Assembly: GCF_903970965.1 (NCBI RefSeq)
Contig: NZ_CAJCKW010000003.1
Location: 62,001 to 126,000 of the forward strand
Reading direction: 5' to 3'
Origin: Aureimonas sp. ME7
GTDB lineage: Bacteria; Pseudomonadota; Alphaproteobacteria; Rhizobiales; Rhizobiaceae
DNA: 64,000 nt
Position numbers and translations under genes: made by a program. The notes beneath the pieces are model-generated. The model did no database searches. It was not told where the DNA came from and saw nothing but the letters and a program-made list of their open reading frames with translations. The number at the start of each line of letters is the position of its first letter. Position 1 is the stretch's first letter. Below are positions 23,974-46,097 of the stretch, in pieces.

Positions 23974-24621
23974 TCAACTCCGCTCGGCAGGCTCGCGGTG
24001 CGGGGTCTTTTCCCAGACATGGGGCGCGCGGAACAGCTGAATCAGCGCGCGGATCCCGGCATAGCTGACGATCAGCCAGTAGAACCAGAGCGACCAGAGC
24101 CTTCGCAGCAAGGGTCGCTCCGTATCGTTCGCCACCAGCCGGGCCGTTGCGATGAACACCGTGTAGGCGATCGCGATGTTGAAGAGATCGACAGCTGCGA
24201 GGATCCCGGCGGTGAGATAGGCCTCCCCGCGGACCGCATAGGCATAGCCCGCCGCCGCGAGGTGGAAGGCGAACATGACGTGCATCAGGCTCGCCGCGAT
24301 CATGCCGCCGAACAGGACCTGGAACGTGGCGAACGCGTTCCAGCCGAGCTGGCGCCGGGTGAGGCCTGGGTCGCGCATGTGGACCAGCCACGTTTGCAGC
24401 CATCCCTTGATCCAACGGGTACGCTGGTTGCGCCAGTCGAGGAACCGCGAGGGGGCGATTTCGGAGGTCGGGCAGTCAATTGTGCCGATCCGATAGCCGA
24501 GGCGCGACAGGCGGATGCCGAGATCGGCATCCTCGGCGACGTTGTGGCTGTCCCAGCCCCCGACCTCCACCAGCGCCGCGCGGCGGAAATGGTTGGATGT
24601 GCCGCCGAGCGGGAGGGGAAG
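23974..24621 (-). pseudogene. 3' part of family 2 glycosyltransferase gene, split by prophage
   Basis: The stretch encodes the C-terminal ~215 residues of a processive family 2 glycosyltransferase: GGTSNHFRRAALVEVGGWD, NVAEDADLGIRL (catalytic ED), NQRTRWIKGW (the Q-x-x-R-W signature), then three to four membrane helices. The reading frame continues past 24622 only into prophage DNA. Joined after removal of the element to the part at 44794-46097, it restores an uninterrupted 649-codon gene. Inactive in this strain unless the element excises precisely. Confidence 0.93.
24617..24621. repeat. 5-bp target-site duplication, right flank
   Basis: GGAAG directly precedes the TGTA end of the element and is repeated at 44794-44798 after its TACA end. 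Five bases is the duplication length made by Mu-type transposases. Confidence 0.9.
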
Positions 24622-24666
24622 TGTAGCGCGCAAAAACGAATGGCCTCGCGCGCAACTTCGGATGGC
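24622..24666. repeat. Right-end transposase-binding repeats (R1, R2)
   Basis: Two 18-bp copies in the same orientation: R1 CGCGCAAAAACGAATGGC (24627-24644) and R2 CGCGCAACTTCGGATGGC (24649-24666), 22 bp apart. They match the left-end copies in inverted orientation. Mu-type transposases bind such subterminal sites when assembling the transpososome. Confidence 0.85.
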
Positions 24667-24683
24667 AAGAGTTTCGCCGCACT

Positions 24684-25496
24684 TCAAACCCTTTTCGAAG
24701 GCCCTTCGATCAGCAGCTCGCCGACCTTCGAACTGGGGCCTTTCCCTATCGTGTAGGTCGTAGGTACGGGGGCCATTTCAAAAGCCTGAAAGATGGTCCG
24801 CACCTCCGGCCGGTCGTTGATCGACAGGAGGAAGCGGCCCTTCAATTCCGCCAGCCGTTCGGCCAACTCGGCGAACTGGTCACGGTCGAAGGCGTCGCGG
24901 CCGTAGTCACCTTCCGAGCCGTAGTAGGGTGGGTCGAGATAGAAAAGCATGCCGGGGCGGTCGTAACGGGTCAGGAACGTCTGCCATTCCATCCGCTCGA
25001 TGACGACGCCTGCAAGGCGCTCGTGAAGGGCTTCCAAGATCGGTGCCAGCTTGGTGACATTGAAACGGGCGCCCTGGCTTGTGTCGACACCGAAGTTGCG
25101 GCCCTCGACCTTCCCGCCGAAAGCCAGCCGCTGGAGATAGAGGAAGCGCGCGGCGCGCTCCAGGTCGGTGAGCGTGTCCGGATCGGTTGCCTTCAGACGC
25201 TCGAACTCGCGGCGGGTGGTGATCTGGAAGCGCAGCATCTCCATGAAGTGGGTGTAGTGCCTCTGGAGGATGCGGAAGAAGGTCGCCACGTCGCCGGAGC
25301 GGTCGTTGATGGCTTCGAACCGAGGCTGGCGCTTTCGGCGCAGGAAGACGCCGCCCATCCCGACGAAGGCCTCGGCGTAGCCGTCGTGCGGGATCTGGTC
25401 GATGCGGGCGGTCAGGCGTCCGGCGAGGTTGCGCTTGCCGCCGATGTAGCCGGCAGCGGGCGCGGCCGGGGAAACCGGCCGGTGGTCGTCGTTCAT
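24684..25496 (-). CDS. D12-class N6-adenine DNA methyltransferase (Dam-like)
   Basis: A 270-aa Dam-family enzyme. GYIGGKRNLAGRL is the N-terminal FxGxK-type SAM region, AEAFVGMGGVFLRR motif I, and FYLDPPYYGSEGDYG the catalytic DPPY motif. It methylates adenine, probably in phage DNA; the target is unknown. It is the last gene before the right end, the position where Mu carries its DNA-modification gene mom, so protection from host restriction is inferred. The start is MNDDHRP at 25496; an in-frame extension to 25553 is less likely. Confidence 0.9.
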   Translation of the reverse strand: MNDDHRPVSPAAPAAGYIGGKRNLAGRLTARIDQIPHDGYAEAFVGMGGVFLRRKRQPRFEAINDRSGDVATFFRILQRHYTHFMEMLRFQITTRREFERLKATDPDTLTDLERAARFLYLQRLAFGGKVEGRNFGVDTSQGARFNVTKLAPILEALHERLAGVVIERMEWQTFLTRYDRPGMLFYLDPPYYGSEGDYGRDAFDRDQFAELAERLAELKGRFLLSINDRPEVRTIFQAFEMAPVPTTYTIGKGPSSKVGELLIEGPSKRV

Positions 25497-25644
25497 TGAG
25501 GAAGCTTTCAGATGTTTCGGCCACCTTCGCCGTGCTGCCTTCCCCGGCAGCACAAAGGTGGGGCGACGTCATCTCTTCTGTGCGTCGTGCGGGGTCGGCC
25601 GCCAAGCAAGGCCCCGTAGTCGGTTCACGCCGGCCCCCGCCGCC

Positions 25645-26055
25645 TCACGGAGGTGCGTCTGCCATAAAAGCCTGAAGGTTCGATGCCGGCCCGGTCGGGA
25701 AGGGATATGCGTCGCCAGCGAAAACCGGAGTGATCCGGCCGAGAAGCGTTTCCGGCTGGAAGCGCGAGAGGAGGACGAACGGCTCTCCCCTTGCGGCGCG
25801 CTCGCTGTCGGAGACGAGGAAGCATCCAGGATGCTCCTCGATCTCCTCGTCTCGCTCCAACGTGCGGATGACCATCCACGCGCCGGGAGCATGGATCGCG
25901 GGCGAGAGGTCGTCCTCGGCCTCTCCCTGGGCCGCCTCGACAACTATGACGTCGACCGGCATCCAGGTGCGGCCGCCCTCGTCGAGCCAGCAGGGCGCGC
26001 CGTCGCCAGTCGGGCGATCCGCCTTCGTTCCGAACATGAGGACATGATCGATCAT
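25645..26055 (-). CDS. Phage hypothetical protein
   Basis: A 136-aa protein starting MIDHVLMFGTKADRPTGDG, coupled to the preceding gene by an ATGA overlap at 26052-26055. The region MPVDVIVVEAAQGEAEDDLSPAI and the Pro-rich C-terminus are not recognised. Its place after the fibre-like gene suggests a virion accessory or assembly role (inference). Confidence 0.6.
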   Translation of the reverse strand: MIDHVLMFGTKADRPTGDGAPCWLDEGGRTWMPVDVIVVEAAQGEAEDDLSPAIHAPGAWMVIRTLERDEEIEEHPGCFLVSDSERAARGEPFVLLSRFQPETLLGRITPVFAGDAYPFPTGPASNLQAFMADAPP

Positions 26056-27047
26056 CGGCGAACCCCCGAGAGTTTCGCGATCACGGCGCGGTTGAGATTG
26101 GTCGGGATCGCGTAGCTTCCGGAGACGTTCTGGACCGTCTGCGTCGAGGCATCGTCGAAGGTGAAGGTCAGGTCATGAGCGCCGGACGGGAGCGTCAAAG
26201 CAACCTGATCGGCAGCGCGGGTTGCGGCGCTGCCGATCGGCGTTGCGACGAACGATGCAGGAGCGGGCTCCATCGAGAGCATAGGGAACCCGATGCGAGC
26301 GACGATGTCGATCGGTGTACCGTTGGCGACATTGAAGCCAACCCGAGAATTTAGTCCGGTGCTGTTCTGTTGAAGCGTGAATGTGTGCGCTCGAAGCGTC
26401 GAGAGACCGCTATCCGGATTGAACCCAGCGCTGCTTGGAAACTCGGTCTGCGCTCCTCCGCCGGCTCGGCCGCCGATATTGGCGCTGGAGAAACCTGTCT
26501 TCTGTGCCGGCATTGAAACGTAAGCCGAGTGCGTCCACGTCTGACTGATCGCGCAAGCGACGCCAACGACTATATCGACGGTCAAGCCGACATTCGTTCC
26601 GCCTGGATGCTGGTATCTGAACTCCGAGTAGCGAATGCCGTTCTCGGACGATGGTGGCGCGTAGGTTATCGAGCCGCCGCCCGATACATTGAAAGTCCAG
26701 TTGGTCGGCTTGTTGCTAGCGTCGACGCCGGCGATGTCCGCATTGCGGATATGGTTCGTGCGCGCCGGCTCCACATAGAGCCCTCCGCCCTTCCGGTAGC
26801 GGAGGAGGTTAGCCGCAATGTCGGTCCACGCTGCGCCGTCGAATGCCTTGCCCGACGAGGCGCGAACGCATGAGGCGATCGCAGTGATCGGAACGACGAT
26901 CCCGCCCCGATGGGCTCGATCGTTGACGAAATCGACCTCGAAGGACTTCGTCGGATCAGCCCAGTCTGGGTATGCAATTCTCGCGAGCGAACGACGCCTG
27001 AACGGCGCGTTCATAATGCCCCGACTCGAGAAGGGCGCCTGAAACAT
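26052..27047 (-). CDS. Phage tail/spike-like receptor-binding protein candidate
   Basis: A 331-aa protein rich in beta-strand and Gly/Ser/Thr/Asn, with GGGLYVEPARTNHIRNADIAGV, a motif seen in phage spike-fibre proteins with jelly-roll carbohydrate-binding folds. DLTFTFDDASTQTVQ near the C-terminus also fits a beta-sandwich. It lies among the late tail genes. Receptor binding is inferred. An in-frame ATG at 27014 is an alternative start. Confidence 0.65.
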   Translation of the reverse strand: MFQAPFSSRGIMNAPFRRRSLARIAYPDWADPTKSFEVDFVNDRAHRGGIVVPITAIASCVRASSGKAFDGAAWTDIAANLLRYRKGGGLYVEPARTNHIRNADIAGVDASNKPTNWTFNVSGGGSITYAPPSSENGIRYSEFRYQHPGGTNVGLTVDIVVGVACAISQTWTHSAYVSMPAQKTGFSSANIGGRAGGGAQTEFPSSAGFNPDSGLSTLRAHTFTLQQNSTGLNSRVGFNVANGTPIDIVARIGFPMLSMEPAPASFVATPIGSAATRAADQVALTLPSGAHDLTFTFDDASTQTVQNVSGSYAIPTNLNRAVIAKLSGVRR

Positions 27048-27048
27048 G

Positions 27049-27396
27049 TCAGGCCCGGTAGAATGAAAGCGTGATCGTCGTTGCCGCCGGCGCGACTAAG
27101 GAAATGCGATCGTCGCCTTGGCGGATCTCTCGCGCACCAGGGTTGAGTTCGCTGGCGGCGCCATCGGAGATGTCCCCACTCGGAACAGAGGCGGCCACCG
27201 TACCAGTGCCGAACTTCGCGTAGAAATCCCCTGTTGATGCGAATAGGACGTAGGCCGCCTCCGAGGGAATGCTCACCGTTTTGGCAACCCCGGCTGCGAG
27301 AACTCGTGCCTGTATAAGGTTTGAGGATGGAGGGGCGAGCCCAGCCCGCTCGCTAGACCGGTTCTGGTGATTGTTCAGAAAACGCGTTAGCGCCAT
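27049..27396 (-). CDS. Phage hypothetical protein
   Basis: A 115-aa protein with a basic N-terminus and a beta-rich body (SEAAYVLFASTGDFYAKFG; TTITLSFYRA). It follows gene D and precedes the spike-like gene, so it may be a small tail decoration or fibre partner. No known family was recognised. Confidence 0.6.
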   Translation of the reverse strand: MALTRFLNNHQNRSSERAGLAPPSSNLIQARVLAAGVAKTVSIPSEAAYVLFASTGDFYAKFGTGTVAASVPSGDISDGAASELNPGAREIRQGDDRISLVAPAATTITLSFYRA

Positions 27397-27417: not shown

Positions 27418-28440
27418 TCATTCGGCATTGCGGGTCTCGATCGTGGTCACCCAGCCGGCACCCTCGGGCTCGATGTCGTGGACGACGGACACGGCTTCCC
27501 AGTCGACGTTGTCGATATCCGGCCCGAAACCCTGCGGCTCCACCGGCGAGCCGGCGACGGCGTAGGGCTGGCCGGCGCTCTGAAAGAGGCCGCTGGCGGT
27601 TTCGGCATCGAGGCGCTGGGCGGCGGCGGCCGACATGGCGGTGGCGAGCTGCTCGGAGCCGACGATGTGGGGCATGGCGAAGCGCGCGGCGCCCCGGCCG
27701 AGCGCCTTCAGCGTGTCGAAGGGGCGGCCGGCGGCCGGGTCGAACCAAGGCGTCGTCACCTCGGCGAAGCCGTAGCGCGGCGTGATATCGACCTGGAAGA
27801 AGTAGTTCGGGTCGCGCGGGATCGTGATCGTCTGGAGCTGCTGGCCGGTCGGCGTCTGGAACGAGCCGCGCCGGCGCACGGTGAGCGAGCCGGCCTGCGG
27901 CTTGATGATCGCGCCCAGCTCCTCTGCAATGTCGGTGACGAAGCCGATGGAAGATTGCTTCCAGCGCAGGAGGTAGCCGCCGGCCAGCGGGATCTTGGCG
28001 ATCTCCGGGTCGATCGAGGCGTCGAGGCCGACGCGCTCCGCCATGGTGCGGATCACGTCGCCATAGGTTTTGTGGCCGGTTTCCTCGTCGAAGTGCTCGC
28101 TATCCACGCGCTTCAAACTGTCGTTGAAGTCCGCAGCCTCGCAGACGAGGACCGTCTCCTCGCCCTCCTGCGGCGAGCCGGAATGGAGCACCTGCATGAA
28201 CTTGTAGGTGCCGGTCATCACGGCGCCCTGTTCGTCCCAGCCGACATGGATCTGGAAGACGGTGCCGACCGGCGGTGCGGCCCGATAGGGCTTGGTGCGG
28301 CGCAGGCGGATCATCGCCCGGTCGATCTCGCCCTCCATGAGGTCGGTGATCTGGACGCCGACGAGGTCGCGGCCGAGGCGCTGGCCGATATCGGTGCCAT
28401 CCTGGCCCGAAATGCGAAGGTAGGGTTTGCGAAACGCCAT
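27418..28440 (-). CDS. Phage late control / baseplate hub protein (P2 gpD family)
   Basis: A 340-aa homologue of gpD. Landmarks are GTVFQIHVGWDEQGAVMTGTYKF (tail-hub barrel), DSEHFDEETGHKTYGDVIRTMAERVG, LRWKQSSIGFVTDIAEELGA and VTTPWFDPAAGRPFDTLKAL. In P2, gpD lies at the end of the tail operon after U and X, as here. The protein forms part of the hub under the spike. Its partner spike gene gpV is not present in the element. Confidence 0.88.
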   Translation of the reverse strand: MAFRKPYLRISGQDGTDIGQRLGRDLVGVQITDLMEGEIDRAMIRLRRTKPYRAAPPVGTVFQIHVGWDEQGAVMTGTYKFMQVLHSGSPQEGEETVLVCEAADFNDSLKRVDSEHFDEETGHKTYGDVIRTMAERVGLDASIDPEIAKIPLAGGYLLRWKQSSIGFVTDIAEELGAIIKPQAGSLTVRRRGSFQTPTGQQLQTITIPRDPNYFFQVDITPRYGFAEVTTPWFDPAAGRPFDTLKALGRGAARFAMPHIVGSEQLATAMSAAAAQRLDAETASGLFQSAGQPYAVAGSPVEPQGFGPDIDNVDWEAVSVVHDIEPEGAGWVTTIETRNAE

Positions 28441-28443
28441 CGG

Positions 28444-28656
28444 TCAGATCCACGGCCGGACGGCTTCGTCGCCGGCCTGGACAACGTCGGGAACGGTCAG
28501 TCGCAGACCGACTGGCACCGCGTCGACCACGTCGGCAAGGCCCGGATTGGCGTCGAGCAGGGCTTCCACCGTGCCGCCCCCTTCCGTGCCGTAGGCTTCG
28601 CGGGCGATCCGATCGATCCGGTCGGACTTCTCGACGAGAAAGGACGTCGTCGCCAT
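28444..28656 (-). CDS. Phage tail protein X (LysM-like)
   Basis: A 70-aa protein with RIDRIAREAYGTEGGGTVEALLDANPGL and PVGLRLTVPDV, the LysM-like layout of P2 gpX. It overlaps gene U by 1 nt (TGATG) and is followed 3 nt later by gene D. It probably binds the tape measure or hub during tail assembly. Confidence 0.88.
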   Translation of the reverse strand: MATTSFLVEKSDRIDRIAREAYGTEGGGTVEALLDANPGLADVVDAVPVGLRLTVPDVVQAGDEAVRPWI

Positions 28657-29060
28657 CAGCGGTCTCCGAGATCCACGAGGTCGAGCTCGACCGACAGGAT
28701 GCGACCGACGCCGTCGCGCGGGTGCTGTTTGGTTTCCTCGTGGAAGAGGTTGCGGATGCCGACGCGCGCGATCCGCTTGGCGGCGTAGTTCGCCCCCATC
28801 CGCAGATACTCGACGGGCTCCAGCGCCTCGTGGTGCTTGATCAGCCATTCCAGGGCGTCGATCCCGCCGAAGACGTGCGGCAGGGTGCGCGCCTCGATCA
28901 GGAAGCGGCGCTCGCCGCGCCCGGTCCCTTGGTAGTCCATGCCGTTCCAGGCGGGCGCGCCGGGGAAGCGCGCCTCGCTTTCGGTCGCCAGCCGCTGCGG
29001 ATTGAGACCGACGACGCGCAGCTGCGCCTTCCCGATCTGGGCGAGGACGTCCATGCTCAT
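28656..29060 (-). CDS. Phage tail protein U
   Basis: A 134-aa P2 gpU-like protein (MSMDVLAQIGKAQLRV; GTGRGERRFLIEARTLPHVFGG; LEWLIKHHEALEPVEY). It is a tail completion and terminator-type factor. It is coupled to the tape measure by an ATGA overlap. A second in-frame ATG is at 29054. Confidence 0.86.
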   Translation of the reverse strand: MSMDVLAQIGKAQLRVVGLNPQRLATESEARFPGAPAWNGMDYQGTGRGERRFLIEARTLPHVFGGIDALEWLIKHHEALEPVEYLRMGANYAAKRIARVGIRNLFHEETKQHPRDGVGRILSVELDLVDLGDR

Positions 29061-32000
29061 GCCGGCTGCACCATCGTGTCGTGCATCGCGCCCGACTCCG
29101 CGAGGCGGATGGCGCGGTGCTGCTCGCGGCGCGACCGCTCGGCCGCAAGTCGAGCGTCAAACCCGCCGCGGATGTTCTGGGTCAGATGCAGCGTGGGAGC
29201 GCCGCGCCCGCCACCCGCCGATGCCATGGTTGGCATGGGCTCGTCCTGCGGAGCGGAGCTGGGACGGCGGGTCGGCTTGGGCACGGGACCGGAAGGAACG
29301 GCGCCCTTGATCCCTGCGATGGCATCCGCATCAGGCCGCACACCGGTCCACTCGAAGTGCATCGCGTCCTTTGTGCGCTTCCAGTCTCCGCCCCATGACA
29401 GACCATGCTTGGCCGCGATGTCCGAGACGTTGGCGGGCATGTCGGTCACGAGCCGCGAGCCCATCGGGTTGCGGCCAGGGTTGATGTCGATCGCGTTGCC
29501 GTAGGCGTGTTGGGAAAGCCCGCCGCCGCCCCGCTTGTTGCGGTAGTTGAAGCCGCCCGACGTCTTGGGATCGATCGCGTAGCCCCCGGCTTCGAGTTCG
29601 TTGACGAAGCCTTGGAAACTGGATGCCGCCGCTTCGTGGACCTGGAACTTCGCCCCGCCCGGAGCCTGGATCGTCACGAGGTTGGAGCCGGGCGGCCCAT
29701 ACTGGCCGTGCATCAAGTTCGCGGATCCGCGCTTGCCGCCGAGCGCGGCGGATCCCCCGGTTTCCTTGGCCCCGAACTCGCCTGCGAACCGCTGGGCGTT
29801 GGCCAAGCGGGTGCCGGCGCTGTCATCGCCGAAGCGAACGTAATCCTTCAGAGCGGCCGAGGCTTCCGGGATGGTCGTTGCCGCGCGGAAACGGGCCGAG
29901 CGCCGCTTCTCGTAGGGGTCGTTGCGCATTTCGTGCGCAACGAAGGCCGCCTGGACCTTCCGGTCCTGCCAGCTCATGCCGCGATCGGCCGCGAAGCGTT
30001 TCAGGTTCTCCAGCCTGTTGTCCCGCCACTGCAGGATGCCGCCGGCCCCTTCCTTCGCATTGAAGGACTTCGGGTCGAACGAGGACTCCTGCTCCATGTG
30101 GCCGAGGAGCGCCAGCGACTGCGCGTCGTTGAAGTCGGCCGACAGGATATCATAGACCTCACCAGCCGCGCCGCCGGGGTTGGTCGTGGTGGATACGCTG
30201 CCGCGCGGTCCGCCCACGCCCATCGCCGCGCCAGCGCCGGGGCGCACGTTGGCCATCCCGTCCATGACGGGGGCCGAGCCGGAATAAGCGCTGCGGAAGC
30301 CGCCGCCCGAACCGCCGCGCCCGCCCAGCGAAGCCTGCTGAAAGAACGCATCGCCGCCGCCCCGGAAGGCGACGGGGTCCACCCCGCCGTCCATCGACTG
30401 GAGCGTCCGGTTGATGTCGTCGAGCTTCTTCTCCAGCTGCTCCAGCTGGCGCTTGGTGTCGCCGTAGCCCTGCTGTTCGGGGGAGAGGATTCCGAGCGTC
30501 ACCTTGGCGTCGTCGATCTGGCGCTGGATATCGCCTTGGGCGCGCTGGGCGAGGATGCGCCCGGCAGCGCGCTTCTGCTCGGCCTCGTCGTCCATCATCC
30601 GCAGGTCGCGGTTTTCGTCGATCCGCTGCTCGCCACGCCGGGCGCGCTGGACGTCGAAGACGCGCCCGTCCACCTGTCCCTTCAGGCGCGGGTCGGCGTC
30701 CAGCTCGGCCTTGTCGTCGTCGGTGAGAGCCTTGCCATCCAGCACCTGGTCGGACAGCTCGCCCGCGCGCCGCGATCGGCGGATCCCGTCCGCCCAGCCG
30801 CCGGCGAGATCCGCGACCAGCGTCGCCACGGTGCGGATCGCGGGCAAGAGTTCCTTGCCGATCTCGGAGCCCAGATCGGCGAGCGCGCCCGTCGCCCGCT
30901 TCCAGTCCTGCGCCGTCTGGCGATCGAAGATCTCGAAGGTACGCTCCACCGATCCCGAGCGCTTGGGATCGTCGAGCCGCTCCATGGTCTCGATCAGCTT
31001 CTCGATCTGGCCGGCGAGTGCGGCGAAGTCGTCGCCGAACTCCTCGCCGCCGAGCCCCTTCAGGACTTCCAGGCGGCGCTCCTGCGGCAGGTCGTTCACC
31101 CGGCCGAGGATGTCCACGATCGTGCCGGCGCCATCCTTGTAGAAATCGTCCTTTACGCCCCGGCCGCTGAGGCCCAGCCGCCCGAGCGACTTGCGGAAGC
31201 CCTGGTCGCTGCGCGCGCGCGTGTCGGCGGTGCCGAGGCGCTGGATCAGGGCGTTCATCGCCGTGCCGGCGACCTCGGACGGGGTGCCGAGCGAGTCGAA
31301 CACGGTGCCGAAAGCGGCCATCTGGTTGGCCGAAATGGAGGCGATGCGCCCGCCGGCGGCCGACCGGCGCATGAAGTCGACGATGTTGCGTTCCTTCGCC
31401 GCGTCGTTGTCGGCGAGGTAGTTCACCGTGTCGGCGTTGTCGCGAAGGCCCTTCAGGTCGAGCCCGTAGTTGTTGCGCAGCTTGGCGAGCGCCTCGCCCG
31501 CCTCGCCGTTGTTCATGTCGGCGGCCAGCGCGAACTTGGAGCCGAAGTCGGCGAAGGGGAGAAGATCCTCCGTGGCCGTGCCGCCCTTGGCCGCTTCGGT
31601 GATGAAGTTGAAATATTCCGACTTGGAGATGCCGTTTCGCCGGGACAGGGCTGCGACCCCGGTCTCGATCTTGCGGAGCTGGGCGGGCGACGGGTCGTTC
31701 ATCGCCCGTTCGACGTCGGCCATCGAGCTTTCGACGCCCATGGCGAGCCGCGCCGAGGACGCGCCGAGCGCGCCGACCCCGAGGGCGGCGCCGCCGGCCG
31801 CGAAGCCCGCCATGCCGCCGACCGACAGGCCGAGCGGCATGAAGCTCGTCCCGCCGACACGCTCGTAGCCCTGGCGCCAGAACTCCCCGCGTCCCCCACC
31901 ATACCCATGACCGCGAGCGTCCCGCGCCTGCCGGCCGAAGCGCTCGGCCGCGCGCGTCGCCTCGTTGAGGTCGCGGGTGATGGCGTCGACGCCGTGGGCG

Positions 32001-32440: not shown

Positions 32441-32619
32441 CAATCCTCACCGAGAAGGCCGGCTTCCTCGCACCAATGGAGGAAGTCGGGCCAGGGGCGG
32501 TCCAGAAACCAGGGCAGCGGGGTCATGGTCGCGCGCGCGGCCAGGATGGCGAGCGAGCGCCAGGAGGCGGGCGCCGCCTTCAGTCGCCGCCCGCCCTTTT
32601 CATGAAACGGGGCAAAAAA
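32440..32619 (-). CDS. Tail assembly chaperone extension E', made by -1 frameshift
   Basis: In the -1 frame relative to gene E, translation continues from the slippery site at 32613-32619 through WRSLAILAARATMTPLPWFL and a conserved-looking DRPWPDFLHWCEEAGLLGED end. The stop overlaps the tape measure ATG. This matches the E + E' arrangement of P2, where the shifted product is needed for tail assembly. No good independent start was found, so it should be read as the end of a longer E-E' fusion from 33038. Confidence 0.8.
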   Translation of the reverse strand, partial: FFAPFHEKGGRRLKAAPASWRSLAILAARATMTPLPWFLDRPWPDFLHWCEEAGLLGED

Positions 32620-37742: not shown

Positions 37743-37753
37743 GGCCTATCCCC

Positions 37754-38059
37754 TCAGCGCCGCGACGGGCGCGCGATACCCTCGATCGTGGTCACGCGCT
37801 CGACATGGTTGGCACCGGCCTGGGTGATTTCGGCAACGAGGAAGTCGCCGGCCGGGTGCAGGCGGATCGCACCGAGGTCGGCCATCACGCGCAGCTCGGT
37901 GCGCACGAAGTCCTTCGTCTTGCGGTAGCCGAACGCCTTCAGGTGCTCCAGGAGGAGCGTCTCGTTCAACGTGTCGTCCGACTGCTCGTGAAGGGCACGG
38001 AGCATCACGAGGCGGGCGTCACGTCGCTGAAATTCCGGATAGTCGGAGAACACGTTCAT
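37754..38059 (-). CDS. Mu gp26-like phage protein with winged-helix character
   Basis: A 101-aa protein: LVMLRALHEQSDDTLNETLL, then RTELRVMADLGAIRLHPAGDF, and LVAEITQAGANHVERVT. The pattern of a small winged-helix protein and the position between gp25- and gp27-like genes are typical of Mu-like phages. It overlaps gp25 by 4 nt (ATGA). Role unknown. Confidence 0.8.
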   Translation of the reverse strand: MNVFSDYPEFQRRDARLVMLRALHEQSDDTLNETLLLEHLKAFGYRKTKDFVRTELRVMADLGAIRLHPAGDFLVAEITQAGANHVERVTTIEGIARPSRR

Positions 38060-38538
38060 TCCTCGTTCCTAGCTTGGTCAATGGCCGCCTGCTCGCGGGC
38101 AGCCTGTTCGCGAGCCATCTGTGCCCGGATGCGAGCCGCCTGCGACTGGACCCCGTATTCGAACATGTACGTTTCGATCCGCTCCACCGCGCTGTTGGTG
38201 GCCTTGCCGATCTGCTCGATCACCGCCATCCGACCCTCATGGCGGGCCAGCGCGATCTTGATCTCGTGGACCTCCTCGCGGGTCGCGCGCTGCTCGATGT
38301 CGCGCTCGACGGCAGACACGCGCCGGGCGACGGTCTCGATCTTCTCGTCGATCTTATCGACGGTGGACTGCACCGCCGTCAGCTTCTCGTCGTCGACCAG
38401 CGTCTTCCGATCGCCGAACACGGCGCTGACGCCGGCCTTCTTCAGGCCGAAGATCAGGACGAGGAGGACGATCCCGATGCCGGCGGCGATCGGGCCGCCG
38501 GTCGCGATCAGTTCGCCGATGTATTTCTCGAAACCCAT
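38056..38538 (-). CDS. DUF2730-like phage protein (Mu gp25 position)
   Basis: A 160-aa protein with one N-terminal membrane helix (GGPIAAGIGIVLLVLIFGL) and a long coiled-coil (VDKIDEKIETVARRVSAVERD). This is the DUF2730 layout, seen just before gp26/gp27 in Mu-like phages, possibly a spanin-like or holin-associated factor. ATG 38538 was preferred to an upstream TTG. Confidence 0.75.
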   Translation of the reverse strand: MGFEKYIGELIATGGPIAAGIGIVLLVLIFGLKKAGVSAVFGDRKTLVDDEKLTAVQSTVDKIDEKIETVARRVSAVERDIEQRATREEVHEIKIALARHEGRMAVIEQIGKATNSAVERIETYMFEYGVQSQAARIRAQMAREQAAREQAAIDQARNEE

Positions 38539-38930
38539 CCGAGCCAAATCCCCGCCAGCGTGGTGACCAGGGCCAGCATCGAATAGACGCCGGCGCCCGT
38601 GCTAAGCGTCGCGGCCCGCCAGAAGTTCAGGGCGACGATGGTCCAGGTCCCGGCCGCGAGCGCCATGGCTACGAACCGGAGGAAACCGCTGGCGCGAACG
38701 TCCGGCAGCATCGCCCAGATCTGGACGAGGACGATCGCCGCCATCAGCACCGACCACCAGATGGCCGGCAGGGCGTCGAAAGCCGAGAACGTGTCGCGCA
38801 GGAGAGCTTCCGGGACGTTCAGAAGGAAGATCGCCCAACTGGCCAGCGCGGCCGCCGAGAAGACCTCAAGCGGCCGGACCGGGTCGGAGAAGAGGAAGGC
38901 GAAGGCCTTCATGACGATCCTCTTGAACAT
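38508..38930 (-). CDS. Phage multi-pass membrane protein (holin-type candidate)
   Basis: A 140-aa protein with about four membrane helices and a basic amphipathic N-terminus (MFKRIVMKAFAFLF). It lies between the transposase and gp25, the lysis area of Mu-like phages. No endolysin gene was seen nearby. It overlaps the next gene by 31 nt. A holin role is inferred from position and topology. Confidence 0.6.
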   Translation of the reverse strand: MFKRIVMKAFAFLFSDPVRPLEVFSAAALASWAIFLLNVPEALLRDTFSAFDALPAIWWSVLMAAIVLVQIWAMLPDVRASGFLRFVAMALAAGTWTIVALNFWRAATLSTGAGVYSMLALVTTLAGIWLGWVSRNTSAN

Positions 38931-38995
38931 CGCATCACCTACGGAAGAGCGGACCGCCCTGCACAGACGATCCGCAGGTCTGACGGGCTGGGCGG

Positions 38996-40594
38996 TTAGA
39001 CGAGGCCGAGATCCGTATCGTCCATGCGGACCAGGACGTTGGTTCCCGGCAGGATCGCGGGCGTCATGTAGTGGCGGCCGTCGACACGGATGCCGTGCTT
39101 GGTGACGGTGCGCGTCGCGCCGCCGGCCACCGGCAGGAGGAGGATATCGAGCGCCCGCTCGTCCACGGTGCGAACCCGCTCGCGCGACTGCGCGCCGACG
39201 ATCGATGGCGTCTTCCGGGCAAGTCCCTCGTGGGGGCGGTGGTGGTAGACGAACTCGACCCAGCGGTCGACGGCGTCCTGTAGCTCGACCCCGGACAGGC
39301 TGACGCCGAACGCTTCCGCCTCGCTCTCGCCCAGCCGGGCCGCGAACGACTTCCGCGCTTCGATCGCCTTTCGGTCGGCGACCGAATGGCCGACGAAACC
39401 GGGCAGCGTGGTGGCGCAGTCGTGCTGGAAGGTGCGGATGACGCGCTCGACGTGCCCCTTTTCTTGCGGGGAATAGGCGTTCGAGCGGATCGGCTCGATA
39501 TCGAGATGCGCGAAGAGACGGTTGACCTCCTTCGCCACGAAGTCCGAGCCGTTGTCCGTCTTGATCGCGGTCGGCACGCCGAAGGCCAGAATGCCCTTCC
39601 GGATCATCAGCGCGACGGCCGAGGCACGAGGCGTCTTCGATACGTGCAGCACGATGCGCCGCGTCGCGATGTCGATGCAGACGTAGATCGAATGGCGCCC
39701 ATCGGTGCATTGCGCATCGACCGGCGAGGCGTCGATCATCCAGAGCTGGTTCGCGGCCGTGATGTCCGCGAGCGCGCCGCGCCCGGTCGGCGCCATGGTG
39801 GAGCGGAACAGGTCCGGGTTCTGGATCTTCGTCAGCACCACCTTCTCGCTGCTTCGAAGGGTCTTCAAAGCGTGCTGGAAGGTGCGAACCGGCGGCATCT
39901 CGACCGACCGTCCGGAGACGATCAGCGTCTCCCCGAACTCCGAGCGGCAAAGCTGGCGGATGTGGTGGGCGGACAGATGCTGGTTGTCGGCCAGGAGCGC
40001 CAACACGAAGACGCGGACCTGCCCGTCGTTGGCGAGGTCGAAGACGCCCTTGCCCTTGCGATTGGCCGCCTTGTCGACAGCGAGCCGGCTCGTGTCGGCC
40101 TTCGCCTCGTCCTTCCAGCGCGCCAGCGAGCGAACCGAGATCGCGGCGACATGCTCGCGCACCCAGGGTTCGACCGCGAGATAGCCCGCGTTGTAGCGCT
40201 TCACGAACAGGTCGCGGGTCGCTCCCTTGTTCACACGCTGCCCCTTGGCGAAAGCGTCGAAGGCGCGAAGGATCGCGAGCCGGGCGTCCCGCTCGATCGC
40301 GGCTCGGGCCGAAAGGTTGCTGCGCACGAGTGAGGACGGGGCGTCGTTCGCGGCCGCCGGCATCGCCAACGAGCCCACACGAAGGAAGCGGCGCTTGTAG
40401 TCGACCTGGGCGAGCGTCGGCAGCGCGCCGACATGGTACTCCATGCCGCCGCCACGCCCGGCCCGCTTGCGGCTGCGGATCTCGTCCGTGTTCCAGCCGT
40501 CGCGCTCGGCAAGGTCGAGAACGCCCTTCACGGTCGTCGGGATCTGCGGAAGGTTCGCGTCGGCGATCTCGCGCGCGGTCAGCCATTCCTTCAT
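38996..40594 (-). CDS. Mu-type DDE transposase, apparently shortened at the C-terminus
   Basis: A 532-aa transposase. An N-terminal Mu-type DNA-binding domain (MKEWLTAREIADANLPQIPT) is followed by the catalytic core with Asp288 (WMIDASP), Asp347 (KTDNGSD) and Glu383 (KGHVERV), a D,D35E arrangement. A C-terminal barrel begins (ILPGTNVLVRMDDTDLGLV) and stops at once. Full-length MuA homologues are longer and continue through the barrel to a MuB-binding tail. The 3' end may therefore be lost with a downstream deletion. It would cut and join at the repeats seen at both ends. Confidence 0.92.
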   Translation of the reverse strand: MKEWLTAREIADANLPQIPTTVKGVLDLAERDGWNTDEIRSRKRAGRGGGMEYHVGALPTLAQVDYKRRFLRVGSLAMPAAANDAPSSLVRSNLSARAAIERDARLAILRAFDAFAKGQRVNKGATRDLFVKRYNAGYLAVEPWVREHVAAISVRSLARWKDEAKADTSRLAVDKAANRKGKGVFDLANDGQVRVFVLALLADNQHLSAHHIRQLCRSEFGETLIVSGRSVEMPPVRTFQHALKTLRSSEKVVLTKIQNPDLFRSTMAPTGRGALADITAANQLWMIDASPVDAQCTDGRHSIYVCIDIATRRIVLHVSKTPRASAVALMIRKGILAFGVPTAIKTDNGSDFVAKEVNRLFAHLDIEPIRSNAYSPQEKGHVERVIRTFQHDCATTLPGFVGHSVADRKAIEARKSFAARLGESEAEAFGVSLSGVELQDAVDRWVEFVYHHRPHEGLARKTPSIVGAQSRERVRTVDERALDILLLPVAGGATRTVTKHGIRVDGRHYMTPAILPGTNVLVRMDDTDLGLV

Positions 40595-40827
40595 GACTGC
40601 GCTCCCGTCGCGGACGCGACCTTCGCCTTGATGGCGGCCTCGTTCTTCGCCAGCCATTCCAGGGTCTGCATCGCCGCGCGAAGACGCTGGACGTGCAACT
40701 GGCCCACGGCCTCGCGCATCGCCCCCCGCTGCACGGCTCGGGTGATTTCGGTCTCGCGCAGCTTGAAGGCGATCTCGGCCTCCTGGATCTGCTGCTCGAT
40801 GCGGATCATCTGCCGGCCGCCGCTCAT
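40591..40827 (-). CDS. Phage early hypothetical protein
   Basis: A 78-aa helical protein (MIRIEQQIQEAEIAFKLRET; MQTLEWLAKNEAAIKAKVAS) with heptad-like spacing. It overlaps both neighbours by 4 nt, so it is translated in the early operon just ahead of the transposase. No family was recognised. Confidence 0.7.
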   Translation of the reverse strand: MSGGRQMIRIEQQIQEAEIAFKLRETEITRAVQRGAMREAVGQLHVQRLRAAMQTLEWLAKNEAAIKAKVASATGAQS

Positions 40828-41288
40828 CGACGCCCCCGCACCTTCTGGAGGAGGGCGGATTTCAGGTCGGCGACCTCGCGCTCGTGCTCTTCGATTTCGT
40901 GGAGTTCGATCAGGTCGACGTAGTGGTCCGCGACCACGGCACATTCGAACAGGCCGGGGATGAACCCGAGCAGCCGCCGCTCGCCGGTCACGTGGATCAG
41001 CGCGATGAAGGCGTCGAGGTCGATGCGACGATCGTCGGCAGCCGCGCTCGTCCATTTGTCGATCGTCGGCTTCGTGATCTTCCGGCCGAGGAACTCGGTC
41101 ATCCGGCGCGCCACGTCGTTCCGGCAGACGCCGCGTTCCTTCGCGTCGGTCAGGGCATGGGAAACGAGGCGGGCGATCTGGCTGGACAGGTCGCCGCGAC
41201 CCGTCACCTCGGCGCTGAAGCCGAGGCGAACGGACTGCGCCTCCCAGGCGAGCAGATCCTTGGCGTGAGGGTCGCGGCGAAGGGGCAT
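40824..41288 (-). CDS. Phage early protein, possible DNA-binding
   Basis: A 154-aa protein with a helix-turn-helix-like stretch RNDVARRMTEFLGRKITKPTI and a C-terminal charged helical region. It follows the ParB-like gene and shares overlap codons with both neighbours. Mu carries an ATPase (B) after A; this is not an ATPase. Function unknown. Confidence 0.65.
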   Translation of the reverse strand: MPLRRDPHAKDLLAWEAQSVRLGFSAEVTGRGDLSSQIARLVSHALTDAKERGVCRNDVARRMTEFLGRKITKPTIDKWTSAAADDRRIDLDAFIALIHVTGERRLLGFIPGLFECAVVADHYVDLIELHEIEEHEREVADLKSALLQKVRGRR

Positions 41289-42136
41289 CAGGCGGCCTTC
41301 GAACGCTTGGTGTTGGCGCGCTCCGCGAGCCAGATCTCGATATCCGGTGCGTTGAGTTCGAAGAAGGCGACCTTCTCCGCCGGCTTCAGCGTCGAGAACT
41401 TCTCGTGGATGCGCTCGTAGGCAGCGAGCTTCGCCACCGAAGGCGTGGTCCCGAGCAACATCAGCGCTTCGGTGACGCTGGTCGCGCGGACCGGCTCGGA
41501 CACCAGCATGTCGACGATGGCCGCTTGCCGCGCCTCGCTTTGGCTGGCCAGCGTCAGCAGCTCGCTCTGCTTCCCGGCAACGGGGTGGAGCGCGATCTGC
41601 GTCGTCAGCTCCGGGGCGATCGAAGCCACTTGGAGGGCGAGGTAGATGGAGCGTTGCGACAGGCCGAGGGCGGCTTTCGCGGCGTCCGTGAAATTGTTTG
41701 CAAAGTTTGCAATCAATTCGTCGGTGGTCTCGGTCGGCGCCGTCGCCGGCTTGCGTCCGCGCTTCGGGGGGACATGGACGGTCTCGTAGACCTCGCGCCA
41801 TGCTGCGATGTAGCGAGCCCGGTCGAGAACCGTCAGCTCGCCGCGCATCATGTCGGCCTTGATCTCGGCAAGGGTCGCTGAAGCGTCGTCCGCCAACGCG
41901 CTGGCGGGCTTCACCTTCGCCTCGATCTCGGCCCAGCCGAGGAGACCGGCTGCCGCCAGACGGCGCGCACCGGAAACGAGCCGGAAGCGATCGCCACGCT
42001 CGACGATGTGGATGGGCTCCTGCTGGCCCTCTACGGCCATGTCGTCGGCAATGGTGCGAACCCAGGCTGGATCGAGGACGCGCAGGCGGTTGCCGGCGTC
42101 GATGGTCGCGATCGAAATCATACGCGATGCGGACAT
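41288..42136 (-). CDS. ParB/Srx-fold DNA-binding phage protein
   Basis: A 282-aa protein with the ParB N-terminal motif series: VLDPAWVRTIADDMAVEGQQ, EPIHIVERGDRFRLVSGARRLAAAG (the GxRR box that binds CTP in ParB), then a helix-turn-helix region with LGLSQRSIYLALQVASI. ParB-like proteins occur before the transposase in alphaproteobacterial Mu-like phages. An in-frame ATG at 42121 gives an ATGA overlap and is an alternative start. Confidence 0.82.
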   Translation of the reverse strand: MSASRMISIATIDAGNRLRVLDPAWVRTIADDMAVEGQQEPIHIVERGDRFRLVSGARRLAAAGLLGWAEIEAKVKPASALADDASATLAEIKADMMRGELTVLDRARYIAAWREVYETVHVPPKRGRKPATAPTETTDELIANFANNFTDAAKAALGLSQRSIYLALQVASIAPELTTQIALHPVAGKQSELLTLASQSEARQAAIVDMLVSEPVRATSVTEALMLLGTTPSVAKLAAYERIHEKFSTLKPAEKVAFFELNAPDIEIWLAERANTKRSKAA

Positions 42137-42384: not shown

Positions 42385-42599
42385 CGGTCGGACTGCCGCT
42401 CCGACTTGCGCGCTAGATCGTCGAGCTTCCAGATGTGGAAGTGCTCGTTGTAGGCGGCGCGAACTTCGGGTGGGATCGCTTCGGAGCCCGCGTGTTTGCG
42501 AATATGGGAGTGCTGATTGGCTGCTTGCCGAAGCAGGCATCCTTTCGAACGCTCGTCGCAGTCCGGCAGCGGACAACGGAAGCAGGCGCTATCCGTCAT
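42381..42599 (-). CDS. Small cysteine-rich phage early protein
   Basis: A 72-aa protein with four cysteines near the N-terminus (CFRCPLPDCDERSKGCLL), possibly a zinc knuckle, and a His-rich middle. It has 4-nt overlaps with both neighbours. Unknown role. Confidence 0.65.
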   Translation of the reverse strand: MTDSACFRCPLPDCDERSKGCLLRQAANQHSHIRKHAGSEAIPPEVRAAYNEHFHIWKLDDLARKSERQSDR

Positions 42600-42919
42600 G
42601 CGCCGCGTCTCCGCTCGCGCATGACCATGATCCAGGCGTCCTGCATCCGCTGAACGACCTCGGGCGTAAGCCCCAAGGCGGTCGCCAACTGCTCGCGCGT
42701 CGCCTTGCCTTCCGTGGCGAGGCCGACCACAGCGACATGCGCGTCGAGGTCGGCGTCGGGCGTGCCCTTCATGCGCGAGGCATAGGCGGCGTCGAACAGG
42801 AACCCCACCATGGTGGAGACAGGCGCGTCGGCATCCTTCGCCAGACGCTCGAGGTTCTCGTAGACCTTCTCCGAGACCTTGATGTTGATCTGCCGCATCG
42901 GCTTCGGCGCGTGGGCCAT
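42596..42919 (-). CDS. Ribbon-helix-helix-like phage early protein
   Basis: A 107-aa protein whose N-terminus (MRQINIKVSEKVYENLERLA, then DADAPVSTMVGFLFDAA) resembles a ribbon-helix-helix DNA-binding fold. The C-terminal half ends in a basic helix. It may be an early regulator. It overlaps neighbours by a few bases. Confidence 0.68.
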   Translation of the reverse strand: MAHAPKPMRQINIKVSEKVYENLERLAKDADAPVSTMVGFLFDAAYASRMKGTPDADLDAHVAVVGLATEGKATREQLATALGLTPEVVQRMQDAWIMVMRERRRGA

Positions 42920-43032
42920 TAGGCGCTCCTACGGGTGAGCAGCACCGCCAGCAGCGCAAGGCCAATAGCCAGCGTCAGCACGGCGGCGGGGCCGCTGGCA
43001 GCGATCATGGTTAAGATTTCCAGCGCGCTCAT
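42919..43032 (-). CDS. Tiny single-pass membrane protein
   Basis: A 37-aa product, MSALEILTMIAASGPAAVLT followed by a hydrophobic stretch and LLTRRSA. It is one transmembrane helix with a basic C-terminus. The ATG overlaps the stop of the Ner-like gene (ATGA) and its stop shares a base with the next ATG, so it is embedded in the early operon. Probably real because of this tight coupling; the function is unknown. Confidence 0.65.
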   Translation of the reverse strand: MSALEILTMIAASGPAAVLTLAIGLALLAVLLTRRSA

Positions 43033-43349
43033 GCCGTGGCCCTCGCGTCGTCAGCGCGGACACTGCGCTTTGAGCGGGACTCCGAAGGCGCGTTTGCGAT
43101 AGGCTTCCGAAGGCTTGAACGGCTCTGGATGAAACCGGTCGGGAACAGCGTGTCGAAGGGGATGCCGAGCGCGTCAGCGATGGCGTCCGCACCCTTCCGG
43201 CTCAGACCCTTCAGGGCGCGGCGCACCGCATGCTCCGGGAGGTCCGACCGGCGCGCGATCTCGGCCATCGTGAGGTTCTGACGGCGGATTTCCGCCTTGA
43301 TGCCCTCCGCGTCCCATTCGGTGGGTGGCTTTGTTGCCGCCATAGTCAT
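43029..43349 (-). CDS. Ner/Nlp-like helix-turn-helix regulator
   Basis: A 106-aa protein with a Ner-type domain: EWDAEGIKAEIRRQNLTMAE, IARRSDLPEHAVRRALKG, and DAIADALGIPFDTLFP, followed by a basic tail. In Mu, Ner limits early transcription from a promoter divergent to the repressor, which is the arrangement here. GGAG lies upstream. Confidence 0.88.
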   Translation of the reverse strand: MTMAATKPPTEWDAEGIKAEIRRQNLTMAEIARRSDLPEHAVRRALKGLSRKGADAIADALGIPFDTLFPTGFIQSRSSLRKPIANAPSESRSKRSVRADDARATA

Positions 43350-43610: not shown

Positions 43611-44336
43611 ATGGTGATGGCGGAGTTCAAGGATCGCCTGCAGCTCTTAGTTGGCGAGCACAAAAGCGCTAACTCGTTCGCCAAAGAGGTCGGTCTTGGT
43701 CAGAGCTTGCTTCGGCAGTATCTGGACGGCGCCATGCCGCGCCTGGACAAGCTGGTGCAGATCGCGGCGGCGACGGGCGTCCACATAAATTGGCTCGCAA
43801 CCGGGCAGGGTCCCCGTGACTCTTTCTCCCCGGTGCGCCAGTTAGGTGTAGGAACACAACCAGAACAGACCGGAGGACTTGCCGTGATCCACACCGACCC
43901 GTCCGACCTCGCCGACGACGCTATGGTGTTGCTCCCGCTCCTGGATGTGCAGCCTTCTGCCGGTTCCGGCACCATCGTCGAGGCCGAGCCCGTGATCGGC
44001 CGAGTCGCCTTTGATGCCGCTTGGTTGCGGGCGCGCAGCATTACGCCTCACGCGGCGAAGGTGCTGACCGCGCGAGGTGACTCGATGGAGCCGACGATCC
44101 GGAGCGGCGACACGCTGATCGTCGACACGGCCATCGACCAAGCCGTCGATAACGGGATCTACGTTCTCGTCTATGGCGACGCCCTGCTGGTGAAGCGCCT
44201 GCGCATCAAGCTCGACAGCTCCGTCGTCATCACCAGCGACAACCAGTCGGCCGGTTTCGACGAAACGGTGACGCCCGATCAGATCGAGCTGCTGCGCATC
44301 GCCGGCCGCGTCATGTGGTACGGCCGGATGATCTGA
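43611..44336 (+). CDS. Prophage S24/LexA-type repressor
   Basis: A 241-aa repressor. N-terminal XRE helix-turn-helix (SANSFAKEVGLGQSLLRQYL; MPRLDKLVQIAAATGVHINW), a linker, and a C-terminal S24 peptidase-like domain with Ser158 (GDSMEPTIRSGD) and Lys195 (LLVKRLRI) as the catalytic dyad. Self-cleavage after DNA damage is possible (inference). It is divergent from the Ner-like gene. A second in-frame ATG at 43617 may be the true start. Confidence 0.92.
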   Translation: MVMAEFKDRLQLLVGEHKSANSFAKEVGLGQSLLRQYLDGAMPRLDKLVQIAAATGVHINWLATGQGPRDSFSPVRQLGVGTQPEQTGGLAVIHTDPSDLADDAMVLLPLLDVQPSAGSGTIVEAEPVIGRVAFDAAWLRARSITPHAAKVLTARGDSMEPTIRSGDTLIVDTAIDQAVDNGIYVLVYGDALLVKRLRIKLDSSVVITSDNQSAGFDETVTPDQIELLRIAGRVMWYGRMI

Positions 44337-44338
44337 CG

Positions 44339-44605
44339 ATGCCTCTTGATGGCGGAGTGCTTCTGTCCGAGCGGGAAAGCCCGAAGCTGCGGCTGTTCTG
44401 CCGCAAGTGCGGGCTCCGCCGGCAATACGACAACGAGGCTTTGATCGCACGCTTCGGCGACGCCCAGGTCCCAAGGCTGATTTCGGAGCTTGCGCGCCTG
44501 AACGGCTGCCAGCGAGCCCATAAGGGAGACATCAACGACTTCTGCGGCCTCCGGGGCCGAACGACCGACGATCCCGAATGGATCGCTTCACGCCCCGCGC
44601 CGTAA
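44339..44605 (+). CDS. Hypothetical zinc-ribbon-like protein at the left end
   Basis: An 88-aa protein with CRKC near residue 20 and further cysteines later (NGC, FCGL), suggesting a small metal-binding fold. It starts 2 nt after the repressor stop and ends 5 nt before the first left-end repeat. It is probably cotranscribed with the repressor and expressed in the lysogen. No family recognised. Confidence 0.6.
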   Translation: MPLDGGVLLSERESPKLRLFCRKCGLRRQYDNEALIARFGDAQVPRLISELARLNGCQRAHKGDINDFCGLRGRTTDDPEWIASRPAP

Positions 44606-44610
44606 TCGAG

Positions 44611-44793
44611 GCCATCCGTTCTTGCGCGCGCTTCTCTCAATCGCGCCGTTTTTGCCATCCGTTCTTGCGCGGCGCTTTTCGCTGGAATGGCCCTCAATGG
44701 CTCTTCAAAACCCGCTAGATCAGGGCTTCCACCACCATTTCCCGGTCAATCCCGCCTAATCCCGCTCCGTGCCACCCGTTCTTGCGCGTTACA
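44611..44793. repeat. Left-end transposase-binding repeats (L1, L2, L3) and terminus
   Basis: Three 18-bp copies of GCCATCCGTTCTTGCGCG: L3 at 44611-44628, L2 at 44654-44671 and L1, with one change, at 44771-44788 followed by TTACA at the tip. They are inverted relative to R1/R2. The spacing (43 and 117 bp) differs from the right end, as in Mu. Confidence 0.85.
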
Positions 44794-46097
44794 GGAAGCG
44801 AACGTTTCGCCAGCCAGGGCAGGACCGCCCGGAACAGAACGGCGTATTCCAGCGCAAAAAGGGTCTCCAGCCAGCCGTTCCCGGCGTTGCGGATGACGAG
44901 CGGCGCCTGGACGCAGGCGAGCTCCGGCGGATGGGTGCGAAACGCCTCGTGCGCGGCGCGCAACTGCTGGGGATGAGGGCGATCCTCCGCGTCGAACAGA
45001 ACGAGATATTCGCCGCGCGCGAGCGGCAGGGCGAAGTTGAGGGCCTTCGGCTTGGTGGTCGGATAGGTCCGGGGCGTCGCGATCACGGAGAAGTTCGGCT
45101 GGTGTTCGATGGCCCGCTCCACGGCGGCGATGGTGGCGGGGTCGTTCGCTTCGCAGACGAAGAACACTTCCAGGCGTGATCGCGGCCAGTCGAGTTCGGC
45201 CATCGCCTTGGCCAGCGGCGCGGCCATGTCCGCCTCCCGGTGCAGGGCTACGAGGACGGAATAAAGCGGGGCCGCCGTGTCGGGTGCGGCGGGGGGCGGG
45301 GGACGCGAGGGCGCGCGGGAGCGCTCTCGAACCGTCCCGACGAGGACGCGCAGCCGAAACAGCGTGAGACCGAGGGCGGCCGAACTTGCCGTCGCATGGA
45401 GCGCGAACCAGAACCACTGCGGGGATGCGTACCAGCCATGGGCCAGGAGCATCAGGAGAACCACCAGAAGCGCGGCCTGGAGCGGGGTCAGGACATCGCG
45501 CGCCGACCATCGGTTGTGATCGGCCGCAAGGCTGAGACGCGCGCGGTTGGAGCGTTCGGTCTTGTCTGCTGCCTCGCGAAGCGCGGCGATGTCGGCCAGC
45601 GTGGTGATGCGCAGGCTGCGGGCCAGTCCGGGTGTTCGCCGAAGGCCGGCGATCAGGGTGTCCAGCCGTTCCAGCTTGGGGGCAAGGTAGAGCCGGGCCC
45701 TCAGGGCGCCGTCACAGGTCTTGGCGTGTCGCTCGCTGGCTGCCAGCGCGCCGCGCCCGTCGCGCAGGAGCGTTGCGTTTGGATCGATGTCTTCTTGGAC
45801 GAGACCGAGCGCTTCGGCCGTGGCGCTTGCAAGCTCGCGGGCGCTCACGACAGTCCCCGCCATCAGTTCCTCGTCCACGCTCGACCCATGCAGGCGGGCT
45901 GCCAGTAGGGCGTTCTGGAACTCGGTCTGCGTAATCCCGCAGGTTTCCAGAATGCGATGGAGGACCTCGACGGCCGACGCCGCGCAACCCAGCGCATCCC
46001 GTTGCGCGCCCGCTATTTCGGCTGCAACCTGTGCGGCACCAAGAAGCGTTCCTCTGGCCTCCACGTCGGTATGGGAATATTCCGTCAGACGCAGCAA
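44794..46097 (-). pseudogene. 5' part of family 2 glycosyltransferase gene, split by prophage
   Basis: Encodes the first ~434 residues: an N-terminal helical region resembling the GspE/MshE N-terminal fold (weak), two membrane helices (QAALLVVLLMLLAHGWY; FWFALHATASSAALGL), then the GT2 domain with LYSVLVALHREADM, VFFVCEANDP and FDAED (DxD-type metal site). It breaks at AKRSLP, within the duplicated CTTCC. The other 214 codons are at 23974-24616. The start at TTG 46097 is uncertain; a GTG at 46067 is an alternative. Confidence 0.9.

Follow-up and report, generated by a model that had tools for sequence, protein, structure and literature searches.

Mu-like phages and the locus in Aureimonas sp. 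ME7

The closest described systems for the element discussed here are Escherichia phage Mu and the Mu-like Rhodovulum phage RS1 and Rhodobacter phage RC1. The element lies in a stretch of 64,000 nucleotides from Aureimonas sp. ME7 (assembly GCF_903970965.1, contig NZ_CAJCKW010000003.1, positions 62,001 to 126,000 of the forward strand), hereafter the window, where it interrupts a gene for a GT2 glycosyltransferase (GT). As in phage Mu, its MuA transposase has an N-terminal DNA-binding domain, which matches 1tns, and it carries a Mu gp27, whilst the Mu portal and MuF families are found in a related prophage of a congener, G008 (working labels beginning with G, C and L are used here for genomes, contigs and loci); unlike Mu, it has a truncated MuA and no MuB was found in it. 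The MuA is related to that of RS1 and RC1 (39% identity), and RS1 furthermore has a divergent repressor, a small terminase subunit (TerS) and a start of the large terminase subunit (TerL) that are related to those in the window. However, the records of RS1 and RC1 run to about 40 kb, the RS1 transposase has 705 residues with a transposition protein behind it, and no ParB-like gene is named among 40 of the 56 RS1 features, whereas the window element has such a gene.

We read the locus, with a probability of roughly 0.87, as the relic of a Mu-type phage that carries two internal deletions and that broke the GT2 gene by transposition. The ends, the target duplication, the interruption, the deletions relative to the G008 prophage and the intact relatives can all be read from sequence. 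An original prediction, made from the letters of the window, had reported a Mu-like prophage inserted in a glycosyltransferase gene; that observation is confirmed, and its interpretation is correct in its core and incomplete.

Ends of the element and the interrupted gene

Read directly, the element proper runs from 24622 to 44793 (20,172 bp), opening with TGTA and closing with TACA, and it is flanked by two copies of GGAAG. The termini and the 5-bp duplication of the original prediction thus stand as described, and of its span, 24617-44798, the element is present but both duplicate copies had been counted in. Just inside both ends are repeats of the type CGCGCAAGAACGGATGGC, for which the window holds six matches with at most three mismatches against 0.27 expected; five of these are at the element ends (24627+, 24649+, 44611-, 44654- and 44771-) and the remaining one is away from the element (14721-). 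The end repeats would be MuA binding sites. A MuA-type DDE transposase, the TGTA/TACA ends with their repeats and 5-bp duplication, and a divergent repressor place the ancestor of the element among the Mu-type phages. The features of the insertion are as follows.

44794..46097, minus strand: 5' part of the GT2 gene, residues 1-435, containing DAEDRP (Pfam GT2, flank rejoining, motif location)
23974..24616, minus strand: 3' part of the GT2 gene, containing EDAD and QRTRW (Pfam GT2, flank rejoining, motif location)
24617..24621, plus strand: target-site duplication copy 1, GGAAG (direct reading; TGTA starts at 24622)
44794..44798, plus strand: target-site duplication copy 2, GGAAG (direct reading; TACA runs to 44793)
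24627-24644 and 24649-24666, plus strand: two end repeats, putative transposase sites (repeat search, end comparison with G008)
44611-44628, 44654-44671 and 44771-44788, minus strand: three end repeats, putative transposase sites (repeat search, end comparison with G008)

When 46097-44794 is joined with 24616-23974 the result is 1947 nt, which is 648 residues and a stop (649 codons) without an internal stop, with a putative TTG start codon at 46097 and AKRSLPLPLGG as the peptide at the seam. The rejoining is as exact as had been predicted and the protein is continuous there in relatives: in tblastn, each of the seven GT relatives fetched gives a single segment that spans the seam, and none of them is an intact gene that fails to continue beyond it. 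One of these, L003 from G002, ends at residue 474, because the copy in G002 carries an insertion of its own. Both parts of the window gene have Pfam GT2 domains, and in PDB their sequence matches a GT2 structure (6yv7) and catalytic subunits of cellulose synthase; the enzyme is a candidate membrane glycosyltransferase of the processive type. The seam at residue 435 leaves DAEDRP (369) on one side and EDAD (463) and QRTRW (499) on the other, which we take to be the catalytic motifs of GT2 synthases. As these motifs fall on opposite sides of the insert, the enzyme activity would be lost, which supports the earlier proposal that the strain has lost a membrane glycosyltransferase; its surface polymer may also differ from that of relatives.

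Deletions relative to a full-size prophage

The prophage of G008 (C34:222190-269320) is 47,131 bp long, is bounded by TGTA/TACA ends and a 5-bp duplication of its own (CGAGA), and from its size, ends and gene content it looks complete. The window element has 43% of this length, with about 27 kb net gone. At one end (the 24627-24666 side) the first 55 bp differ from the G008 element at one position, at the other (the 44611-44788 side) the first 24 bp are identical, and the two MuA proteins are 63% identical. Mapping gene by gene on G008 reveals two gaps. The first, of about 10 kb, begins at MuA residue ~531 and extends as far as the genes upstream of TerS; the second covers about 19 kb, beginning at TerL residue ~91 and reaching the gene that precedes the tail sheath. 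The junctions, placed approximately by residue-level comparison and without strand, are these.

38990..39005: deletion junction J1
36905..36915: deletion junction J2, where TerL is fused in frame to a fibre-like protein

The partner sequences at J1 and J2 have no counterpart in G008. In G008 the three proteins scanned from the first gap are MuB (phrog_296), a transcriptional regulator (phrog_2030) and phrog_2045, which is of unknown function; the second holds Portal_Mu, MuF, Mu protease, Phage_tail_S, Gp37-like, Baseplate_J, phrog_877 and a fibre, with a GpV Apex match below the cut-off. The MuA of the window has 532 residues and ends inside Mu-transpos_C, compared with 733 in G008 and 704-737 in 11 other relatives (11 of the 12 MuA loci found were measured, L035 being omitted as its match begins inside the protein), and a transposase cut in this way would be inactive. 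MuB was not found among the scanned proteins of the element, and queries with MuF and MuB of G008 found nothing in the window genome, in searches run without a positive control. Portal_Mu, which occurs in one of 21 genus genomes (G008) and in none of 14 named control genomes, was likewise not found in the window genome. The prophage is very probably dead, given that no MuB was found, that TerL is cut near residue ~91 and that neither MuF nor portal turned up in the genome. What the original prediction had overlooked, whilst naming the Mu type correctly, is that this is a double internal deletion derivative, and for that reason the search for excision or circular forms that it suggested is unlikely to find anything; to our knowledge Mu-type elements normally neither circularise nor excise precisely.

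Gene content of the element

Pfam and phrog family searches of the element proteins gave the assignments below. The repressor stands alone on the plus strand, divergent and next to one end, and the other called genes of the element are on the minus strand.

43611..44336, plus strand: CI-type repressor with HTH and S24 domain (family searches)
43029..43343, minus strand: Ner-like HTH, HTH_35 (family search)
42596..42919, minus strand: small RHH-like protein (Pfam match below the curated cut-off)
41288..42121, minus strand: ParB-like protein of the early region (family search, genus comparison)
40824..41288, minus strand: early regulator, phrog_2345 (phrog match)
38996..40594, minus strand: MuA-type transposase cut at residue 532 (rve, HTH_Tnp_Mu_1, Mu-transpos_C; phrog_310)
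38056..38930, minus strand: two small genes, one DUF2730-like below the cut-off and one phrog_16843, without G008 counterpart (family searches)
37754..38059, minus strand: phrog_436 protein, upstream of the terminase genes (phrog match)
37179..37742, minus strand: Mu gp27-like TerS (family searches)
35839..37182, minus strand: fusion open reading frame (ORF), TerL residues 1 to ~91 and then a fibre-like protein (fibre nature suggested by weak matches)
33670..34923, minus strand: tail sheath (family search)
33133..33645, minus strand: tail tube, FII (family search)
32580..33038, minus strand: tail assembly chaperone-like; phrog_166 tail protein (Pfam match just below the cut-off)
29057..32440, minus strand: tape measure with tail-lysozyme and M15 peptidase domains (family search)
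27418..29060, minus strand: three tail proteins, phrog_76, tail protein X and phrog_52 (family searches)
25645..27396, minus strand: three ORFs without family matches, variable region (family searches, G008 mapping)
24684..25496, minus strand: D12-class adenine methyltransferase, 82% identical to that of G008 at the same end (family search)

The fibre part of the fusion ORF has a single, distant match in IMG/VR (28%), and the N-terminal 656 residues of the tape measure (29057-32440) have no match to G008. A defence island was considered and set aside, with two element proteins scanned against PADLOC: the methyltransferase matched PD-Lambda-5_B as well as models of type II and orphan methyltransferases, and a 331-residue ORF had no match there.

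The glycosyltransferase gene in the genus and a second insertion

An intact relative from G016 was searched against 21 genus genomes (20 congeners and the window's own). The gene is uninterrupted, in one frame over nearly the whole protein, in 12 of the 20 congeners; in G006 the match comes in two pieces which lie inside one open frame, and among the 21 genomes there is none in which the halves are separate genes without an element, as the original prediction had considered. In G002 the gene is split by about 17 kb. It is absent from five congeners (G005, G012, G014, G015 and G018), which have weak matches only, with best E-values of 4e-12 to 2e-9, and in all five an 84-residue gene and a solute-binding gene stand about 120 bp apart, a clean absence. 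The same neighbours surround the gene where it is present, the order of 84-residue gene, GT, solute-binding protein and lysyl-tRNA synthetase (presumably of class I type, by its sequence) being common to all three genomes checked, G016, G008 and G010. A homologue at E<=1e-40 was found in 167 of the 199 genomes sampled from the family, which has 109 genera in the sample. The DNA of the lysyl-tRNA synthetase gene is 79% identical to a MAG labelled Mesorhizobium, which together with that sample points to a host that is presumably an alphaproteobacterium of the rhizobial group. From this distribution the gene is common and probably old, and because it is cleanly absent between the same neighbours in every congener that lacks it, it is apparently dispensable. 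Another possible loss is the homologue at G007:C1:2777828-2779669, which has one in-frame TGA. Adjoining the interrupted gene in the window is a large RTX-type repeat protein (HemolysinCabind, 20809-23430) that is poorly conserved in three congener loci by comparison with its neighbours.

The original prediction considered a single insertion in the gene, and both the clean absence in 5 of 20 congeners and a second Mu-type insertion had escaped it. The latter, in G002 (C2), is an element of 17,182 bp (L049:1656-18837) with TGTA/TACA ends and the duplication CCTCG, inserted after residue 471 of its own protein, which is 475 in window numbering and by alignment 40 codons past the window seam. Its repressor is 88% identical to that of the window in the S24 part, its Ner 78%, its RHH protein 53% and the start of its ParB 73%. 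Two of its ORFs are fusions, one of ParB with the C-terminus of MuA (residues 615-727 of the G008 MuA) and the other of MuB with a tape measure, and because of these fusions the element can be said to have two internal deletions. The two elements together have four deletion junctions, and at three of these the frame stays open across the join as a long fusion ORF, which could be chance.

window 35839-37182; L049:4859-5668; L049:5748-9020: fusion ORFs at deletion junctions

Possible defence cargo lies close to both ends of the G002 element, with a TIR-like gene on one side and a PLD-like gene (PADLOC PDC-S05) on the other.

In an alignment of eight GT sequences, the window halves have no stop and seven private changes at 267 columns that are invariant in the other seven sequences, and the G002 gene has no stop and none at 260 such columns. 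The same count in the six uninterrupted relatives runs from 0 to 47. As both interrupted genes are without stops and fall within this range, both insertions are apparently recent.

Strong matches to the ParB-like early gene occur in only four genus genomes, with two of these four elements inside the GT gene (a fifth, weak match in G004 is not counted), and a search of IMG/VR found one locus, on a 47-kb contig. Some MuA match (E<=0.001) is present in 13 of the 21 genus genomes, the window's own included, and besides the window and G008 the other 11 have weak matches or fragments only. What survives of one relic, in G010 (C12, ~352.9-357.2 kb; L041:10869-15153), is one end, the repressor and fragments of MuA. 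This relic sits between a phage portal gene and tail genes of gene transfer agent (GTA) type (GTA_TIM, NlpC/P60) and may have broken a gene transfer agent cluster. The repressors of the window (43611-44336) and G010 (L041 13515-14303) are 91% identical in the S24 part and 75% overall and differ in the HTH part, which looks as if immunity specificity had been swapped. In the window's own genome there is also a weak MuA-like match (34%) near a contig edge (G000:C2:136-423), perhaps another transposase.

Origin of the locus

In the history that we favour, a Mu-type phage, or an already shortened form of it, would have inserted in the GT2 gene by MuA-catalysed transposition, duplicating GGAAG. One internal deletion would have taken the C-terminus of MuA, MuB and the genes behind MuB, and the other most of TerL together with the head and baseplate block, either after the insertion or before it. 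Left over would be both ends, the repressor, the early regulators, a truncated transposase, TerS, an incomplete tail module and the adenine methyltransferase. Such an element would no longer make phage nor, most likely, transpose by itself, and its repressor may still confer immunity to phages of the same type. Several points weigh against this history or blur it. Some C-terminal truncations of MuA retain partial activity in vitro, and the genome queries with MuF and MuB had no positive control. The genes at 38056-38930 and the fibre part of 35839-37182 lack a G008 counterpart, so the ancestor was presumably a mosaic relative, and the sizes of the deletions should be read as estimates. Finally, the GT halves look fresh whilst about half of the phage is gone, which fits slow decay in place slightly awkwardly.

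It is possible, if on balance doubtful, that loss of the GT was itself selected, for instance because its polymer is a phage receptor, with the insertions kept and later deletions taming the prophage. The independent Mu-type insertion in G002, in the same gene 40 codons away with a different duplication and different ends, would fit this, as would the clean absence of an apparently dispensable gene elsewhere in the genus, and the chance that any two of the four strong ParB-like carriers would share a gene under random insertion is put roughly at 0.15%, with gene lengths from the 41 host genes called in the window. However, there are two events only, which were noticed post hoc, the estimate climbs to 1.1% with 10 elements and 4.6% with 20 when 13 of 21 genomes have some MuA match, nothing ties the enzyme to phage adsorption, and the wide occurrence of the gene in the family argues for its long-term usefulness. 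Nor does the estimate separate selection from an insertion hotspot, in which local DNA of the GT gene would draw in Mu-type transposition and selection would play no part. Hotspots have been described for the Pseudomonas transposable phage Ab30 (PMC5977238). For the GT gene we regard a hotspot as a tentative idea: the two insertions are only about 120 bp apart, and GGAAG, CGAGA and CGAGG (CCTCG on the opposite strand) all fit SGARR if either orientation is allowed, but a pattern of 5 bp occurs much too often to single out one gene, the differing end sequences of the two elements suggest different transposase binding, and the gene is uninterrupted in most of the congeners surveyed.

The deletions might instead have come first, the shortened element being moved in trans by a helper MuA and MuB as a natural mini-Mu, perhaps packaged with extra host DNA. 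Such an origin, which we consider unlikely, would account for both ends being kept beside a truncated and presumably inactive transposase while some 27 kb net is gone, for ends nearly identical to those of the full-size genus element when the MuA proteins are only 63% identical, for the undecayed GT halves in both genomes and for the same design in G002 with its ParB::MuA and MuB::tape-measure fusions. Against it, the left 1 kb of the element has one copy in the genome and no second, the J2 peptide junction has no match in IMG/VR viral contigs, helper-type MuB and MuF were not found by the genome queries described above, and the same facts are accounted for if resident prophages are rapidly inactivated. 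The fullest combination, in which the GT gene is a repeated target of knock-outs by double-deleted natural mini-Mu elements reduced to their ends, a repressor and remnants, moved by helpers and retained since loss of the polymer protects from phage, seems to us improbable. A domesticated tail-like particle (tailocin) might be suggested by the sheath, tube, chaperone-like, tape measure and tail proteins that stay open whilst the head genes are gone. By comparison with G008, the Baseplate J-like and Gp37-like genes belong to the block that was deleted, and none is among the element proteins scanned; because the contractile tail thus lacks its baseplate, a tailocin is largely ruled out and very improbable. 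Equally hard to credit is an assembly artefact joining pieces of prophage: the genome is a draft of 60 contigs, but the element lies within a contig of 460 kb and matches to MuB, MuF and portal were not found elsewhere in the assembly.

Comparison with related elements

Among the titles and abstract openings of open-licence papers, no description of this case was found, although a defective Mu-type prophage and a knock-out by insertion are each of a known, ordinary kind. What is worth following is the parallel: two different Mu-type elements in the same gene of two species, each stripped in two places. The two share, besides their target gene and double deletions, related repressor, Ner, RHH and ParB proteins, and differ in their end sequences and tape measure, with the ParB::MuA and MuB::tape-measure fusions and the TIR-like and PLD-like genes near the ends found in the G002 relic. 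The prophage of G008 provides a full-size cousin in a third species that serves as a yardstick, as it has the same ends, 5-bp duplication, gene order, early region, TerS, tail module and D12 methyltransferase at the same end as the window element, but within its 47,131 bp also has the MuB, 733-residue MuA, TerL, portal, head and baseplate that the 20,172 bp in the window are without. Measured against it, two questions become testable, namely whether phages repeatedly drive the loss of this glycosyltransferase, and whether Mu elements move about in nature in shortened form, like the mini-Mu of the laboratory.

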